From assembly GCA_946887075.1 (NCBI GenBank), contig CAMPKA010000015.1, forward strand, positions 1 through 64,000: a stretch of DNA of 64,000 bases. The letters run 5' to 3'. The translations under genes and the position numbers were made by a program. Shown in pieces: positions 2,231 through 22,272 of this stretch; position 1 is the first letter of the stretch; the number at the start of each line of letters is the position of its first letter. The notes under the pieces were generated by a model that saw nothing but the letters and a program-made list of their open reading frames with translations, was not told the DNA's origin and made no database searches. This DNA is from an uncultured Salinimicrobium sp. Lineage in GTDB: Bacteria > Bacteroidota > Bacteroidia > Flavobacteriales > Flavobacteriaceae.

Positions 2231-2280
2231 GAAAACGATCAGGAATTAAGGTCTCTTTCCTTCGCTGATCTCGCGTTTTC
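2231..2280 (-). promoter_or_regulatory. Candidate S4 leader stem-loop in front of rpsD
   Basis: In the rpsK-rpsD gap the mRNA can form a 12-bp stem in two 6-bp blocks. GAAAAC pairs with GTTTTC (2275-2280 with 2231-2236) and GATCAG pairs with CTGATC (2265-2270 with 2237-2242). A 4-nt bulge separates them on the 5' side and the loop is 22 nt. The stem ends 17 nt before the rpsD ATG, so it could affect initiation. S4 leaders are known in other phyla; a role here is inference. Confidence 0.45.
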
Positions 2281-12342: not shown

Positions 12343-12972
12343 TTATTTGCTTAAGTCTGTTTCAATTCCTTCCAGAGACCCTTCCAAAAACACAATATTG
12401 TTTGCATTTAGGATCTTGTAAGTGCTTAATTCTGAAGCTGTTACAACCTCAGAGGTCCTTAAATTGCGTGACGACAAATATACGGTTTTATTTGAGTCAC
12501 CCAACACTATGAGGGATTTTTTGCCTCCAAGTCCCAGAGCGCTAAGAATTTCGATAAAACTCTTGGTCTTGGGGGTATCAAAAGAAAAATCCTCAACGAC
12601 CATTACGGCGTTCTCGCTGGCCTTGATCGACAAGGCTGATCTTCTGGCCAGACGCTTCAGGTTCTTGTTCAGTTTGAAGGAATAATTCCTCGGTCTCGGA
12701 CCGAATACCCTTCCTCCGCCTTTGAACACAGGAGACTTAATACTTCCCGCACGGGCTGTACCTGTTCCCTTCTGTTTTTTTATTTTCCTGGTGGAACCCG
12801 CAATCTCGGCACGCTCCTTGGCTTTGTGTGTCCCCTGACGCTGGTTGGCCAGGTATTGCTTCACATCCAGGTAAACTGCGTGGTTGTTGGGCTCTACGGC
12901 AAAAACAGCGTCAGAAAGTTTAGCCTTTCTCCCTGTCTCTTTTCCTTTTATATCTAAAACTGCTACTTCCAT
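12343..12972 (-). CDS. rplD: Large ribosomal subunit protein L4
   Basis: 50S protein lining the exit tunnel; in E. coli it represses its own (S10) operon by attenuation and translational control. The 209 residues include the extended tunnel loop [21 protein letters not shown] with [12 protein letters not shown]. Its ATG overlaps the rplC stop by 1 nt (TAATG), implying translational coupling. It is therefore under the control of the rplC leader structure. Confidence 0.99.
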
Positions 12973-13583
12973 TACTTCTGAATGATTACATAAGAGTTCT
13001 TATGACCCGGAACGGCACCTTTTACAACTAAAAGATTCTTGTCTGCGACCACTTTCAAAACCCTCAGGTTTTCGACTTTTACTTTTTCTCCACCCATTCT
13101 TCCGGCCATACGCATTCCTTTGAATACTCTCGCAGGATATGACGCTGCACCGATAGAACCTGGAGCTCTCAGACGGTTATGCTGTCCGTGTGTGGACTGT
13201 CCGACCCCACCAAATCCGTGGCGCTTAACAACCCCCTGGAATCCCTTTCCTTTGGAGATCCCGGAAACATCGACGAATTCGCCTTCCACAAAATGCTCAA
13301 CGGTGATCGTGTCACCTAATTTGTGCTCTCCTTCAAATCCCTTGAATTCAACGACTTTGCGCATAGGCGCAGCTCCGGCTTTTTTCGCATGCCCTGTGGC
13401 AGCTTTATTAGCGGTCTTTTTGTCATCGAAACCAAGTTGAAGAGCATCGTACCCGTCAACCTCACTGGTTCTGACTTGGGTAATCACGCATGGTCCCGCC
13501 TCGATAACGGTACACGGAATGTTCTTTCCGTTCTCGTCATAGATGCTGGTCATGCCAATCTTTTTTCCTATTAACCCAGACAT
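12972..13583 (-). CDS. rplC: Large ribosomal subunit protein L3
   Basis: 50S assembly protein reaching the peptidyl-transferase centre. The 203 residues start [20 protein letters not shown] and carry the signature [20 protein letters not shown], then [18 protein letters not shown]. Length is normal. It is separated from rpsJ by 143 nt, unusual in this otherwise tightly packed block; that gap holds a structured leader with an attenuator-like arrangement. Confidence 0.99.
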
Positions 13584-13617
13584 AATTATTTATTAGTTAT
13601 TTAATTGTTTCTGTTCT

Positions 13618-13664
13618 AAAAAATTCAGGATTGAAAAATACTTCCAATCCTGAATGTATTTTTC
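13618..13664 (-). promoter_or_regulatory. Candidate transcription attenuator in the rplC leader
   Basis: On the mRNA strand the order is segment 1 (13664-13656, GAAAAAUAC), segment 2 (13655-13645, AUUCAGGAUUG), GAA, segment 3 (13641-13633, GUAUUUUUC), segment 4 (13633-13623, CAAUCCUGAAU), then five U. Segments 2 and 4 form a perfect 11-bp stem followed by the U-run, an intrinsic-terminator shape. Segments 1 and 3 form a perfect 9-bp stem that excludes it. The stem with U-run ends 34 nt before the rplC ATG. Confidence 0.6.
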
Positions 13665-13718
13665 ACCGTCTTTCCCTCGCCATCAGCTCAGGACATGTCG
13701 GCCCGGGCACTCCGGACC
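13656..13718 (-). ncRNA. Structured 5' part of the rplC leader
   Basis: Behind rpsJ the mRNA forms a GC-rich hairpin: GGUCCGG (13718-13712) pairs with CCGGGCC (13706-13700) around a 5-nt loop. It is followed by an unpaired-looking stretch containing GAGGGAAAG (13678-13670) and GGUGAAAAA (13667-13659). The two short words resemble a conserved part of 23S rRNA domain I as remembered. This would suit a ribosomal-protein binding site; function is inferred. Confidence 0.4.
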
Positions 13719-13726
13719 CCGTTTTA

Positions 13727-14032
13727 TCACACCTTGATCTCCACCTCAACACCGCTGGGAAGTTCAAGCTTCATCAGGGCATCGATGGTCTTTGAAGACG
13801 AGCTGTAGATATCCAGCAGCCTCTTATAGGAGCTAAGCTGGAACTGCTCTCTCGACTTCTTATTCACGTGTGGTGACCGAAGCACAGTAAAGATCTTTTT
13901 ATGCGTTGGTAATGGAATGGGACCCGTTACCACAGCACCCGTACTTTTTACGGTTTTAACGATCTTTTCGGCAGATTTGTCTACCAGGTTATGATCGTAG
14001 GATTTTAATTTTATTCTGATTTTTTGACTCAT
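13727..14032 (-). CDS. rpsJ: Small ribosomal subunit protein S10
   Basis: 30S head protein and NusE transcription factor partner. The 101 residues start [25 protein letters not shown] and contain [28 protein letters not shown], the family signature. It is placed directly behind fusA (11 nt), so the str and S10 operons are merged here without tuf. Confidence 0.99.
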
Positions 14033-17451: not shown

Positions 17452-20400
17452 ATGAAAACAAAGTTAAGCGGATTACTTACGCTGTTACTGGCGTTTGTTG
17501 TGCAGATAACCTTTGCACAAGAACTACAGACGGTCACCGGAACAGTGACTGATGCAAGTGGGATGCCCCTCCCCGGGGTGAACGTGCTCGTTAAGGGCAC
17601 TACAAGAGGGGTCATGACGGACTTCGACGGGAACTACTCGATCGAAGCCAGCAATGGAGAAGTGCTGGTATTCTCTTATGTGGGAATGGAAACCGTAGAG
17701 GTTGTATTCCAGAACTCTCCCATTATAGATGTCGTCCTTGAACCGGACGCCGCCCAGCTGGAAGAGGTGGTTATCACCGCCCTGGGAATCAGAAGGGAAG
17801 AGAAATCCCTTCCTTATGCTGCCCAGGTGGTGAACGCTGAGGAGCTGAATATTACTGAAGACACCAATATCAAATCTGCCCTGGCAGGTAAGGTAGCCGG
17901 TGTTGAAGTAAGCTCTCAGGCAGGATCAAAATTAGGTGAGGCTGGAAGCATCCGAATTCGGGGTGGTATTTCCTTGACCTCCGATGACGATCCTCTTTAT
18001 GTGATCGACGGAATTCCTACCACCAATCCAAATGCAATCGACATGAGTACGATTGCCTCCCTGAACGTCCTTAAAGGTCCGAACGCCACCGCTTTATATG
18101 GTCAACGGGCTTCCAATGGGGTGATCCAGATCACAACAAAGAAAGGTACAGAATCCGATCGCCTTGGCCTAACACTGACCAGTTCAGTGGCCTTCGACAA
18201 GATTGGCGACATGATGGATTATCAGAACCTTTACGGACAGGGATATTCGGGATCAGCTGAATTCGGAACTTTTGACTTCGAAGCCGGATACAATTTCGCG
18301 GTTTTTGGAATTTCAGGAGGCCCTTACCCGGACTATATGCAGGTTTTTGACGGCAAGCGTTACTTCGACTTGAACGTCTATGCCGATGAGAGCTGGGGAC
18401 CTAGATTCGATGGAGAACCCTATGTGCCATGGTATGCGATGTACCAGAACAGCCCTTATTTCGGGCAAACCGATACCTGGGAAGCACATCCGGACAACAT
18501 CCGAAACTTCTTTGATACGGGTACGACTTTCAAAAACATTGTGTCATTATCAGGAGGTGGTGAGAACTACAGCGCAAGATTATCTTATACGAACCTGAAG
18601 CAGACTGGGGTCATTCCTCATTCTGACCTTGATCGTGACTATATCTCTACGGCTTTTGATTTTGATCTTTCTGACAACTTCACTGTCGGACTTACCGCAA
18701 ATTACAGCGTAAGCGACGTAGCGGGGGACTTCGCGGATGATTACGGAAACCAGACCACCGGTTCCTTTAACTCCTGGTTCGCCCGAAACATCGACATGAG
18801 TAAACTCGAAGAGCTCCAGGGTCTAACCACAACTGAAGGTTATTTGGCCTCATGGAACAACTGGGGACTTGATGCCTGGGCTGCCGGAGAGGATATCGGT
18901 TTTCTGGATTTCAAAAAAGCGGCTTTCTGGTTCAACCCATATGACTGGTTGGCCCTTTATGAAAACACAGCCGAGACCACGACTCTACTTGGGGACGTAC
19001 ATGCTACCTATACCTTCCTTGATCACTTTGAAGCCACTTTTCAGGCATCCAGAAATGAACGAAAGTATAGGGACCACTGGGAAGTACCTTACCTGATTGA
19101 ATTTTCGGCAGCTCCGGGCTTGTACAACGAATGGGTCAACTCCTTCGGAAACCGGTATGAGACCAGCACTGAGGACAACTATCAGGCACGGCTTCGTTAC
19201 GAGCAGGATTTTGAAAACTTCGACCTCAGTGCATTCATTGGAGGAAACATCCGAAAAAATGCATATTCCATGTTCCAAAACGACATGTCTCAGTCCAATT
19301 CGGATAGTGGTGGTTTGATCCTTCCTGATGTTTTCACCTATGCAAACTCAAGGGAAGCGCTGACCGCTGACACCTACGAAAGCAGGAAGCAAGTAAACTC
19401 AATCTATGGTAACGCCACATTCGGTTATCGGGATATGCTTTATATCGATGGTTCAATCCGTAGGGACTGGAGTTCGGCACTTCCAGCCGACAATAACGGA
19501 TATACCTATCCTTCGGTTGGTGCTACGTTCATCTTTACAGAACTGTTAGGAAGCAATGACATTCTCTCCTTCGGAAAGATCCGTGGAGGTTGGGCCCAGG
19601 TTGGGGATGACGTGGATGCGCTTGCCCTTAACCCGGATTATCCTCTTGGAGGAGACCTTTTCGGAGACAGAATTCTTCAGTATACGAGAAGCACGATTAT
19701 CGATCCGGGGATTAAGCCTGCGATGAACACTTCGTATGAGTTCGGAGCAGATCTTAACTTCCTTAATAACAGGGTTGGTTTCCATGCCACCTATTACCAT
19801 GAGACACGGAAAGATGAGATCATTCCGATCACCATCTCTTCCGCAACCGGATTCACAAGCTTCCTTACCAATGCCGGAGAATCCGAGCGGGAAGGGGTTG
19901 AGCTTTCTTTGGATGCAGATATCATCAAAACCGAGGACTTTACCTGGAATCTTCTGGCCAACTGGGCAACCAACACTTCTACTATTTTGAGCCTACCTGG
20001 TGATCTAACCGCCATTGTCGGAGCAGGAGAAGGAACCCTTCAGAACCAGGATACCTGGGATTTCATAAATGTGGTCCACAGACTTGGAGAAGAATGGGGT
20101 CAGCTTCGTGGCACAGGATTTGTATATGATGACGAAGGAAACCGAGTAGTTCGTGCAGATGGCACCTATGCTTATCAGACTGACCAGTACCTGGGATCCA
20201 TCCTTCCTGATTTCACGGGAGGGTTAGTGAACACCTTTACCTATAAGAACCTTAGTCTTATGGCCTCCATCGACTTCCAGAAAGGCGGAAATTTCTTCTC
20301 CCTTTCTGAAATGTGGGGAGACTATTCAGGTCTGACAGCCAGAACAGCTGCAATCAATGACCGCGGGAACAATGTGCGTGATGCTGTGGATGACGGAGGA

Positions 20401-20754
20401 GGAGTACATGTTACCGGAGTGACTGCAGAGGGAGAGCCAGTGGATACTTATGTTCCTGCTATTACCTACTATGGTCAGTTCAATTCAAATGTTATCGCTG
20501 AGGAGTATGTCCATGATGCGAGTTACATCAAATTGAGAGATGTTGCCCTTACTTACACCTTGCCTGGAAGTTTGGTAAATGACTTCTTCTCATCTGCGAG
20601 CATAAGCCTGATCGGAAGGAACCTTCTGATGTTGGCTACCGCCGATGATAACATCCATGCATGGGATCCGTCAGAGCTCTCTCAGCCATGGGGTGAGGAT
20701 GCTCAGCTGCCAAGCATTAGAAGCTATGGTATGAACATTAGTTTAACGTTTTAA
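17452..20754 (+). CDS. SusC/RagA-family TonB-dependent outer-membrane receptor
   Basis: Energy-dependent import channel of the outer membrane, working with the SusD-like lipoprotein encoded next. The 1100 residues comprise a signal peptide (1-22, cut before QE), a carboxypeptidase-regulatory-like domain (about 25-100, TVTGTVTDASGMPLPGVNVLVKGT), a plug domain (about 115-225, with SIRIRGG and VIDGIPT) and a long beta-barrel ending in the expected aromatic residue (NISLTF). Length is typical. No glycan-degrading enzyme or regulator lies nearby, so the substrate cannot be named. Confidence 0.96.
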   Translation: MKTKLSGLLTLLLAFVVQITFAQELQTVTGTVTDASGMPLPGVNVLVKGTTRGVMTDFDGNYSIEASNGEVLVFSYVGMETVEVVFQNSPIIDVVLEPDAAQLEEVVITALGIRREEKSLPYAAQVVNAEELNITEDTNIKSALAGKVAGVEVSSQAGSKLGEAGSIRIRGGISLTSDDDPLYVIDGIPTTNPNAIDMSTIASLNVLKGPNATALYGQRASNGVIQITTKKGTESDRLGLTLTSSVAFDKIGDMMDYQNLYGQGYSGSAEFGTFDFEAGYNFAVFGISGGPYPDYMQVFDGKRYFDLNVYADESWGPRFDGEPYVPWYAMYQNSPYFGQTDTWEAHPDNIRNFFDTGTTFKNIVSLSGGGENYSARLSYTNLKQTGVIPHSDLDRDYISTAFDFDLSDNFTVGLTANYSVSDVAGDFADDYGNQTTGSFNSWFARNIDMSKLEELQGLTTTEGYLASWNNWGLDAWAAGEDIGFLDFKKAAFWFNPYDWLALYENTAETTTLLGDVHATYTFLDHFEATFQASRNERKYRDHWEVPYLIEFSAAPGLYNEWVNSFGNRYETSTEDNYQARLRYEQDFENFDLSAFIGGNIRKNAYSMFQNDMSQSNSDSGGLILPDVFTYANSREALTADTYESRKQVNSIYGNATFGYRDMLYIDGSIRRDWSSALPADNNGYTYPSVGATFIFTELLGSNDILSFGKIRGGWAQVGDDVDALALNPDYPLGGDLFGDRILQYTRSTIIDPGIKPAMNTSYEFGADLNFLNNRVGFHATYYHETRKDEIIPITISSATGFTSFLTNAGESEREGVELSLDADIIKTEDFTWNLLANWATNTSTILSLPGDLTAIVGAGEGTLQNQDTWDFINVVHRLGEEWGQLRGTGFVYDDEGNRVVRADGTYAYQTDQYLGSILPDFTGGLVNTFTYKNLSLMASIDFQKGGNFFSLSEMWGDYSGLTARTAAINDRGNNVRDAVDDGGGVHVTGVTAEGEPVDTYVPAITYYGQFNSNVIAEEYVHDASYIKLRDVALTYTLPGSLVNDFFSSASISLIGRNLLMLATADDNIHAWDPSELSQPWGEDAQLPSIRSYGMNISLTF

Positions 20755-20763
20755 ATAAAAAAA

Positions 20764-22272
20764 ATGAAAAAGTATAAAGCAATACTATTGGTGATGTTGA
20801 CCGTATTGTCGCTCGGCTCCTGTGAGACCGTCGACTTCGGCGACACCAATGAGAATGTCAACGGGCCCTTGGAACTGAACACCGGGGCACTTTTAACTGC
20901 CGCTCAGGTACGGTTCACGGCCGGAATTGGATTCCGGGACTGGTTGGCAAATCCGCACCATTATGTGCAGTACCAGGCCCAACCAGTTTATCCGGATCCA
21001 TCACGCTATGCGGAGACGCCCGTTGACTGGTCAGCGTATTACTCTCAGACCCTATCGAATTTACAAGCGATCATCGATATCTCTCAGAACGAAGAGGTGA
21101 CTTCCACTCCGGCGTATCAGGCCAATGGTTCTGTTGCGAACCAAGTAGCTGTGGCCAGAATTATGAAGGTTCTTATCTTCAGAAGGCTCACTGACACCTA
21201 TGGGGATATTCCATACTTCGAAGCTCTGAACCCAGAGATCCAGTCTCCAGCATATACGCCTCAGGCCGAGATCTATCAGGATTTTATCAAGGAGCTTAAG
21301 GAAGCCAGGGATCAGCTGAATCCTGCCCAAACCGGAGCCCAGGGAGATGTCATCTATAATGGCGATGTAGAGAAATGGCAAAAATTCGCCAACTCACTTC
21401 TGCTATCCATCACGCTTCAATTATCCGAGACAGAAATGGCTGATATGGCTGCAACTGAATTTGCTGCCGCCCTTGCCAATGAGCATGGGGTGATTGAAAC
21501 TGTGGAAGATGAGGCGTGGTATATGCCACAGAACGTGAGTTCTCTAAACAACCCATGGACCGCCTTTAGACCTGCCGATTATAACATGGCAGAGTTCTTC
21601 CAGGACGCACTTCAGGGGGATTCGGAGCATTACTCCAATGATGTTTTTGATGAACGATTGACAATTTACTCCACTGATCCGGAAGCCCAGGGTCTGGAAT
21701 ATGGATTGGAAGAAGGTGAGGCTGAAGGAAGTCCTGCAAGGATCTCTCTTTATATTACAGCTCCTACGGCTCCTTTCCCCATCCTGACATCAGCCTATAC
21801 CTACCTTAACAGGGCAGAAGCAGCTGAACTGGGATGGACTACTGAGGATTCTGCAGAGATGCTGACTCAGGGAATCGTTCAATCCTATAAATCGAAGACC
21901 CAAATGTTCGGTATGGGACCACATGTAGAGGAATCAGGTCTTGACCCCATCGACATCACTGGTGCGGCTGAGGAATTTGCAGCCTCAAGGCTCGCAGACG
22001 CAGCTGAGACTGGAATGCTCCAGGTCATCGGAGAAGAAAAATGGGCTGATCTGTTTCCACAAGGATTCCTGGCTTGGGCCGAGTGGAGAAGGACAGGATG
22101 GCCAATCTTGTTCCCTTCACCAAAACCGCTTAATGACGGGGGCATCCCGACAAGATACCTGTATCCTGTCAATGAGATCAACCTGAACAACGCGAATTAC
22201 CAATCAGGTGTTGCCAATCTGACTCCAGCCGCAGACAAGAATACATCTCTTGTTTGGTGGGATCAGGAATAA
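20764..22272 (+). CDS. SusD/RagB-like nutrient-binding lipoprotein
   Basis: Surface lipoprotein that forms the lid of the SusC-type channel and binds the nutrient. The 502 residues begin with a lipoprotein signal ending LGSC (Cys 20). The C-terminal WADLFPQGFLAWAEWRRTG and the end YPVNEINLNNANYQSGV resemble the SusD-like_2 branch of the family, often found without sugar-degrading genes. It lies 9 nt behind the SusC gene, in one transcript closed by the terminator at 22307. Peptide or another non-sugar substrate is possible but unproven. Confidence 0.94.
   Translation: MKKYKAILLVMLTVLSLGSCETVDFGDTNENVNGPLELNTGALLTAAQVRFTAGIGFRDWLANPHHYVQYQAQPVYPDPSRYAETPVDWSAYYSQTLSNLQAIIDISQNEEVTSTPAYQANGSVANQVAVARIMKVLIFRRLTDTYGDIPYFEALNPEIQSPAYTPQAEIYQDFIKELKEARDQLNPAQTGAQGDVIYNGDVEKWQKFANSLLLSITLQLSETEMADMAATEFAAALANEHGVIETVEDEAWYMPQNVSSLNNPWTAFRPADYNMAEFFQDALQGDSEHYSNDVFDERLTIYSTDPEAQGLEYGLEEGEAEGSPARISLYITAPTAPFPILTSAYTYLNRAEAAELGWTTEDSAEMLTQGIVQSYKSKTQMFGMGPHVEESGLDPIDITGAAEEFAASRLADAAETGMLQVIGEEKWADLFPQGFLAWAEWRRTGWPILFPSPKPLNDGGIPTRYLYPVNEINLNNANYQSGVANLTPAADKNTSLVWWDQE

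Follow-up and report, generated by a model that had tools for sequence, protein, structure and literature searches.

A conserved RNA element between rpsJ and rplC as a candidate attenuator leader of the rplC (S10-spc) operon in Flavobacteriaceae

The analysis of 64,000 nucleotides of DNA from an uncultured Salinimicrobium sp. (contig CAMPKA010000015.1, positions 1 to 64,000; this whole stretch is called the window) revealed a conserved RNA in the gap between rpsJ and rplC. It spans positions 13718-13618 of the minus strand and comprises a hairpin P0, a domain P1, four segments that can pair as 1:3 or as 2:4, and a U-run. We consider it probable that this element is a cis-acting attenuator leader of the rplC (S10-spc) operon in Flavobacteriaceae, which works through a terminator and an antiterminator and has a protein of the operon as its likely ligand. 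As judged by sequence comparison, the element itself, P1, the 2:4 helix, the position, the single strong match per genome and the U-run are established. The genes and parts referred to below are as follows.

13727..14032, minus strand: rpsJ (S10), the directly upstream gene, an ORF of 101 aa
13700..13718, minus strand: P0 hairpin GGUCCGG/CCGGGCC, from the fold of the gap; it ends 1 nt before the conserved core
13665..13698, minus strand: P1 domain, ACAUGUCC - hairpin - GGGAAAGACGG, from alignments, pair counts and a P1-only model
13664-13656, minus strand: segment 1, GAAAAATAC, 5′ arm of the proposed antiterminator 1:3, from direct sequence and pairing against swapped controls
13655-13645, minus strand: segment 2, ATTCAGGATTG, 5′ arm of terminator 2:4, from direct sequence and covariation
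13641-13633, minus strand: segment 3, GTATTTTTC, 3′ arm of 1:3, from direct sequence and pairing against swapped controls
13633-13623, minus strand: segment 4, CAATCCTGAAT, 3′ arm of terminator 2:4, from direct sequence and covariation
13622-13618, minus strand: U-run TTTTT directly after 2:4, from direct sequence and T-run counts in relatives
12972..13583, minus strand: rplC (L3), the first downstream gene, an ORF of 203 aa

The 101-aa ORF, which we take to be rpsJ (S10), closes the series rpsL-rpsG-fusA-rpsJ; the genes after rplC are presumably rplD, rplW, rplB and on. The L3 protein of the window is 96% identical to that of Salinimicrobium catena. The preliminary description had called the rpsJ-rplC gap unusually long, and it indeed measures 143 nt (13584-13726) as against spacings of 44, 3 and 11 nt between rpsL, rpsG, fusA and rpsJ. 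Two large plus-strand ORFs (window 17452-20754 and 20764-22272) are divergent from rpsL and presumably resemble a SusC/SusD-type pair. The same gene block contains a match to the S4-Flavobacteria leader RF03141 (window 2237-2270, minus strand; 41 bits, cut-off 35.2), so that the genome apparently uses at least one other ribosomal leader there.

Read directly on the minus strand, the gap contains two perfect inverted repeats (9 and 11 bp) whose arms interleave in the order 1-2-3-4, with segments 1 and 2 touching and segments 3 and 4 sharing one base, exactly as had been described from the window alone. The hairpins noted at that time are real, but they are the 3′ half of an element approximately twice as long. 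The upstream half that had been overlooked, P0 (13718-13700) together with P1 (13698-13665), holds the most strongly conserved sequence. The hairpin region folds with a z of -3.69, one of 200 shuffles being equally good, and the whole gap with a z of -3.70, for which none of 200 dinucleotide shuffles was as good. A generic terminator scan placed 13655-13623 among 21 sites where shuffles yield 18.1, and such a scan alone therefore proves nothing. A search of Rfam 15 found no family above its gathering cut-off in the rpsJ-rplC gap; the sub-threshold matches there (E of 1 or more) involved one model of a mycobacterial sRNA and otherwise models of eukaryotic small RNAs.

The rpsJ-rplC gaps of the best 80 named rplC loci were inspected for relatives of the element; for six loci with no S10 match (two Sphingobacterium, three Pedobacter and one Cytophagales MAG) the 500 nt upstream of rplC were used instead. 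A common element was present in 41 of those best 80 loci. The 39 without it include all named Flavobacterium loci, Nonlabens, Avrilella, several Flavobacteriaceae MAGs and all named loci outside Flavobacteriaceae. By eye, the gaps of two Flavobacterium loci (L029, L041) carry a different long hairpin of the TCAGG..CCTGA type, and other Flavobacterium rpsJ-rplC gaps show a TAnnTTTG promoter-like site.

A covariance model with P1 and 2:4 (R1) was built on the 41 named copies and the window (42 rows, alignment A1), with L011 left out as a false match in the first regex alignment. R1 scores the window, itself one of its 42 rows, at 83.3 bits (E 3.5e-19). Among 15 genomes of named loci, 12 gave one strong match (67-89 bits) with everything else at 31 bits or less, and the three Flavobacterium-type genomes gave only weak matches (31 bits or less). 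A model of P1 only (E <= 0.1) likewise found one match in each of the 12 element-bearing genomes and none in the three without the element. In a sample of 397 genomes of Salinimicrobium's family, taken as Flavobacteriaceae by inference from the named loci, 312 match R1 at E <= 1e-5, with one match each, and 85 have no match at that threshold. The order sample of 296 genomes yielded 24 at E <= 1e-9 and 32 at E <= 0.001, the remaining eight scoring at most 35 bits; all of the 24 strong genomes except G601 and G648 had already occurred in the family sample (22 genomes), and one of the weak matches (G617) has neither rplC nor rpsJ nearby. In the class sample 5 of 295 genomes match at E <= 1e-5. 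Four of these are again in the family sample; the fifth, G767, is a chance match, which by eye follows a polynucleotide phosphorylase-like gene and lies where neither rplC nor rpsJ was found. The small number of strong matches in the order and class samples indicates that the element is essentially a trait of Flavobacteriaceae.

Genomic context was analyzed in 140 matched loci (L096-L235) out of the 314 genomes with strong family- or order-sample matches. The element is followed by rplC in all 140 and preceded by rpsJ in 139, and the rpsJ-rplC gap has a median of 164 nt (122-590). At the sole locus with no rpsJ found upstream (L217), the element lies behind a TAAATTTGC promoter-like site and ahead of rplC; its retention there, with rpsJ absent from the stretch examined, indicates that the element goes with rplC. 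For more detailed analysis 180 copies were collected, representing 159 distinct sequences: the 41 named copies and 139 of the 140 matched loci, since L165 escaped the regex and was found by the model. The repeat or weak matches L081-L095 were left out, and the L208 row begins at an upstream ATGTC. Over the 180 copies the median distance is 32 nt from the rpsJ stop to the element and 121 nt (91-304) from the conserved AUGUC to the rplC start.

A compact, near-invariant core beside a terminator is riboswitch-like anatomy, and it could be argued that the RNA is a metabolite- or tRNA-sensing switch and not a ribosomal-protein leader. This is very unlikely, given that strong matches were found only before rplC, one per genome, and that no Rfam riboswitch was matched. 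By regex, 139 of the 140 matched loci have an AUG at the conserved AUGUCC, which could also be explained by a leader peptide that starts there and controls the terminator. However, the peptides that would start at AUGUCC have 2 to 49 residues and unrelated sequences, 52 of 159 being Met-Ser only, and L165 has UUUGUCC at this position. With such variation in both length and sequence the leader peptide was rejected; we regard it as scarcely credible.

TAnnTTTG is a promoter motif of Bacteroidota. Of the 180 copies, 19 have it in the stretch from rpsJ to the element, and eight of these sites end 33-37 nt before AUGUC, a spacing that is as expected of a 5′ leader; a few of the 19 appear to be fortuitous. 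Where at least 150 nt are available upstream, 12 of 15 copies carry the motif as against 4.3 expected in shuffles. In 123 of the 180 copies the stretch before the element is shorter than 60 nt and has no TAnnTTTG site, and in such copies the element would act as an attenuator inside the transcription unit.

Both P1 arms, ACAUGUCC and GGAAARACGG, are near-invariant in relatives, and the hairpin tip is variable. Because the regex demanded ATGTC and a GAAAAACG-like arm, the conservation of the arms in the 180 copies is partly a result of selection; a set of 100 model matches (A2, 99 distinct) is less affected by this and, being fitted to the model, leans towards it. An internal loop of the GA/AA type was recognized by a crude rule in 110 of the 159 distinct copies, the others being more fully paired or bulged. 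The preliminary description had called for compensatory changes in the stems of relatives. For P1 and 2:4 taken together, 94.2% of cells in A1 are paired and double changes occur in 11 of 16 pairs, a result as high as which was obtained in none of 500 shuffles. In the 99 distinct rows of A2 the corresponding values are 95.8% and 13 of 16 pairs; one of 500 shuffles reaches the double-change count and none the covariation score, and slid controls are paired in 27-62% of cells (54-62% for a slide of one column). The terminator helix 2:4 itself is altered on both sides in nine of its 10 pairs. P1 and 2:4 covary strongly. In the window the P1 5′ arm can also pair with segment 2; this alternative was rejected, as by eye the pairing is lost in species with CCGGA in the arm.

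The P0 hairpin behaves differently from the P1 arms in that, by comparison of the copies, its position is conserved and its sequence is free. For the 145 of 159 rows with at least 22 nt upstream, the mean z of the upstream segment is -2.44, with 61% below -2. In 114 of 156 copies the best upstream hairpin is separated from the core by 0-4 nt, as against 23% in shuffles; the stems of these 156 comprise 152 distinct sequences, and three copies have no such hairpin. Where rpsJ ends 9-11 nt upstream (L105, L021 and others), the rpsJ stop codon falls, by eye, within the predicted P0 in 10 of 12 cases, and ribosomes ending rpsJ could therefore disturb this hairpin.

The 2:4 helix has a median of 11 bp. 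The five U directly after it, reported previously for the window (TTTTT, 13622-13618), are matched by a T-run in relatives: at least 5 T in the 8-nt window after the 2:4 core in 157 of 159 distinct copies and at least 6 T in 130, whereas background downstream windows reach these values in 10% and 2.8% of cases, respectively, although the core finder gave weight to T after the stem and so favours this count. A stable 2:4 hairpin with an adjoining U-run, that is the anatomy of an intrinsic terminator, is thus present in 157 of 159 copies, and two have a poor U-run. Two divergent copies (L182, L187) have an enlarged 2:4 loop, and L187 is almost without a U-run.

Predicted folds of the growing window transcript pass through P1, then 1:3 at 60-72 nt, and then 2:4 from 75 nt. 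Over the 159 copies, the bare 1:3 helix is weak, with a median energy of -1.4 kcal/mol as against -15.5 kcal/mol for the 2:4 region. With 2:4 winning at equilibrium, termination would probably be the default unless kinetics, stacking or a factor keeps 1:3 in place. The earlier proposal of a switch between mutually exclusive hairpins agrees with the geometry given below; what speaks against a simple switch is the dominance of the terminator fold at equilibrium, so that 1:3 would probably need kinetics or a bound factor.

A helix of at least 5 bp can be formed between segments 1 and 3 in all 159 distinct copies, but partners swapped between species reach this length in 147 of 159 on average, and the mere presence of the helix is therefore weak evidence. 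Helices of at least 7 bp are more telling: 137 of 159 native copies have one, as against a mean of 82 and a maximum of 96 in 100 swaps, and 20 with the 3′ side shuffled. These lists take the best helix of each sequence and lean towards pairing, for which the swaps and a strand-by-strand table serve as controls. The native 1:3 duplex has a mean energy of -3.43 kcal/mol as against -2.24 +- 0.11 in 100 between-species swaps (the best being -2.50) and -1.13 kcal/mol with the segment 3 region shuffled. Thus segments 1 and 3, for which compensatory changes had also been sought, vary together to a greater extent than partners exchanged between species. When the two strands were located independently, position X was T-A in 97, T-G in 14, C-G in 11, G-C in 9 and unpaired in 14 of 145 rows, and position Y was paired in 125 and unpaired in 20 of 145. 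By eye, L165, in which UUUGUCC replaces AUGUCC, forms its 1:3 pairing as AACAC/GUGUU.

Contrasts on the rplC tree were calculated for the 145 of 159 rows in which both motifs were found strand by strand. Mean counts of pairing-preserving and opposite changes in five sets were 1.8:0.3, 1.6:0, 1.8:0, 3.3:0 and 5.0:0, with an unchanged partner in 3.9, 2.3, 0.2, 5.7 and 2.0 contrasts. No set by itself attains p 0.05 (the lowest median is 0.0625), and branches are shared among the five. From these comparisons the 1:3 pairing is probably real, although less firmly supported than 2:4.

The same data bear on the possibility that the RNA is a fixed, unregulated partial terminator, which sets the ratio of str- to S10-operon transcripts and in which the A-tract of segment 1 is a common pre-terminator A-tract that pairs with the U-run. 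Helix 2:4 with its U-run suffices for a terminator, the minimum-energy fold of the whole gap does pair this A-tract with the U-run, and A-rich and T-rich tracts alone often gave 1:3-like helices in the swaps. However, a fixed terminator leaves the near-invariant P1 arms and the conserved P0 unexplained, and the non-A letters of segment 1 track segment 3, as the counts for TA, TG, CG and GC at position X demonstrate. We therefore consider this explanation unlikely and retain the regulated attenuator with alternative pairings.

A different question is whether 1:3 and 2:4 exclude each other or coexist as a pseudoknot that serves as a protein-binding site, with control mainly by translation or RNA stability. 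If only the 5-bp core of 2:4 is counted, a linker of 3-7 nt joins segments 1 and 2 in 130 of 159 copies and segments 2 and 3 in 135, which would accommodate such a fold. The linker between segments 3 and 4, however, is 0-3 nt in 154 of 159 copies, the 1:3 stem measuring 7-8 bp in 114 of them all, and a linker of this length is too short to cross a 7-8 bp stem in a classical H-type pseudoknot. In addition, most of the 41 named copies have a contiguous 2:4 helix that extends into segment 3, and control of translation is difficult to reconcile with the distance from AUGUC to the rplC start given above. A classical pseudoknot is thus disfavoured and we regard coexistence of the two helices as quite improbable. 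The geometry agrees with the preliminary description, which preferred alternative helices.

Among known leaders, that of L20 in Bacillus subtilis is a terminator/antiterminator leader of a ribosomal protein and shares the logic proposed here, in that protein binding would favour the terminator over the antiterminator; it belongs to another protein and another phylum. Control of the S10 operon is best known from E. coli, where, as in its close relatives, the leader lies before rpsJ; the present element, compared with it by description and by the Rfam search, lies after rpsJ and before rplC. Passages on the E. coli operon in PMC10931766 describe L4-controlled attenuation in its 5′UTR, which likewise takes place at an intrinsic terminator and concerns the same regulated proteins, and state that the L4 site is not widely conserved. 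An L4 leader candidate of Archaeoglobi also precedes rplC-rplD-rplW-rplB, but it is archaeal and is rated borderline by Eckert and Weinberg 2020 (PMC7247131). The leaders newly listed in Table 1 of that paper include those of S4, S15 and S16 (Flavobacteria) and of L13 (Bacteroidia), which share with our element the same or a related lineage and the kind of regulation but belong to other genes; no bacterial rplC leader appears in that table. The S4 leader RF03141, whose model has 33 positions, is the one present in the window at 2237-2270. Among the open papers listed, no title or beginning of an abstract describes an rplC leader in Bacteroidota; an earlier unlabelled prediction may exist.

The element has two traits of ribosomal leaders, a constant position upstream of ribosomal-protein genes and covariation of P1 and 2:4. 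Resemblance to rRNA, which is frequent in such leaders and not required, was not found for P1. A 23S stretch, CATGTCCGAGAGGGAAAGAACC, resembled the P1 arms and was rejected as a case of mimicry, as its crude ungapped score is no better than that of Markov-shuffled 23S; the P1-only model, run on two 16S-containing loci and one 23S/5S locus, found no rRNA-like site, the best E being 0.45.

Overall, comparison among relatives supports the attenuator idea put forward from the window alone as regards terminator and position, and less firmly as regards the antiterminator. We propose that, as RNA polymerase leaves rpsJ or, in some genera, starts from a nearby upstream promoter, P0 and P1 would fold, followed transiently by 1:3, the putative antiterminator. 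Upon emergence of segment 4, 2:4 could displace 1:3 and would halt transcription at the U-run before rplC, which is how we infer termination to occur in the cell. A factor may read the ACAUGUCC/GGAAARACGG core between P0, P1 and segment 1. This would most likely be one of the operon's ribosomal proteins in its free form; L4 is a candidate ligand favoured by the E. coli precedent and L3 one favoured by proximity to the element. Under an excess of ribosomal protein the bound factor would tip the balance towards the terminator, the presumed direction of control.

It is conceivable, and we suggest it tentatively, that the element represents an undescribed, Flavobacteriaceae-only class of leader, in which a three-helix core with the sequence-free hairpin P0 reads a protein that is not known as an autoregulator (e.g. 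L3), flips antiterminator and terminator, and uncouples the rplC-led operon from the str genes within one supercluster. As a probable attenuator, the element would provide a candidate for S10-operon control in one family of Bacteroidota, with a core of about 80 nt that is found in approximately four fifths of the sampled genomes (312/397) and with both alternative folds visible in the alignment.
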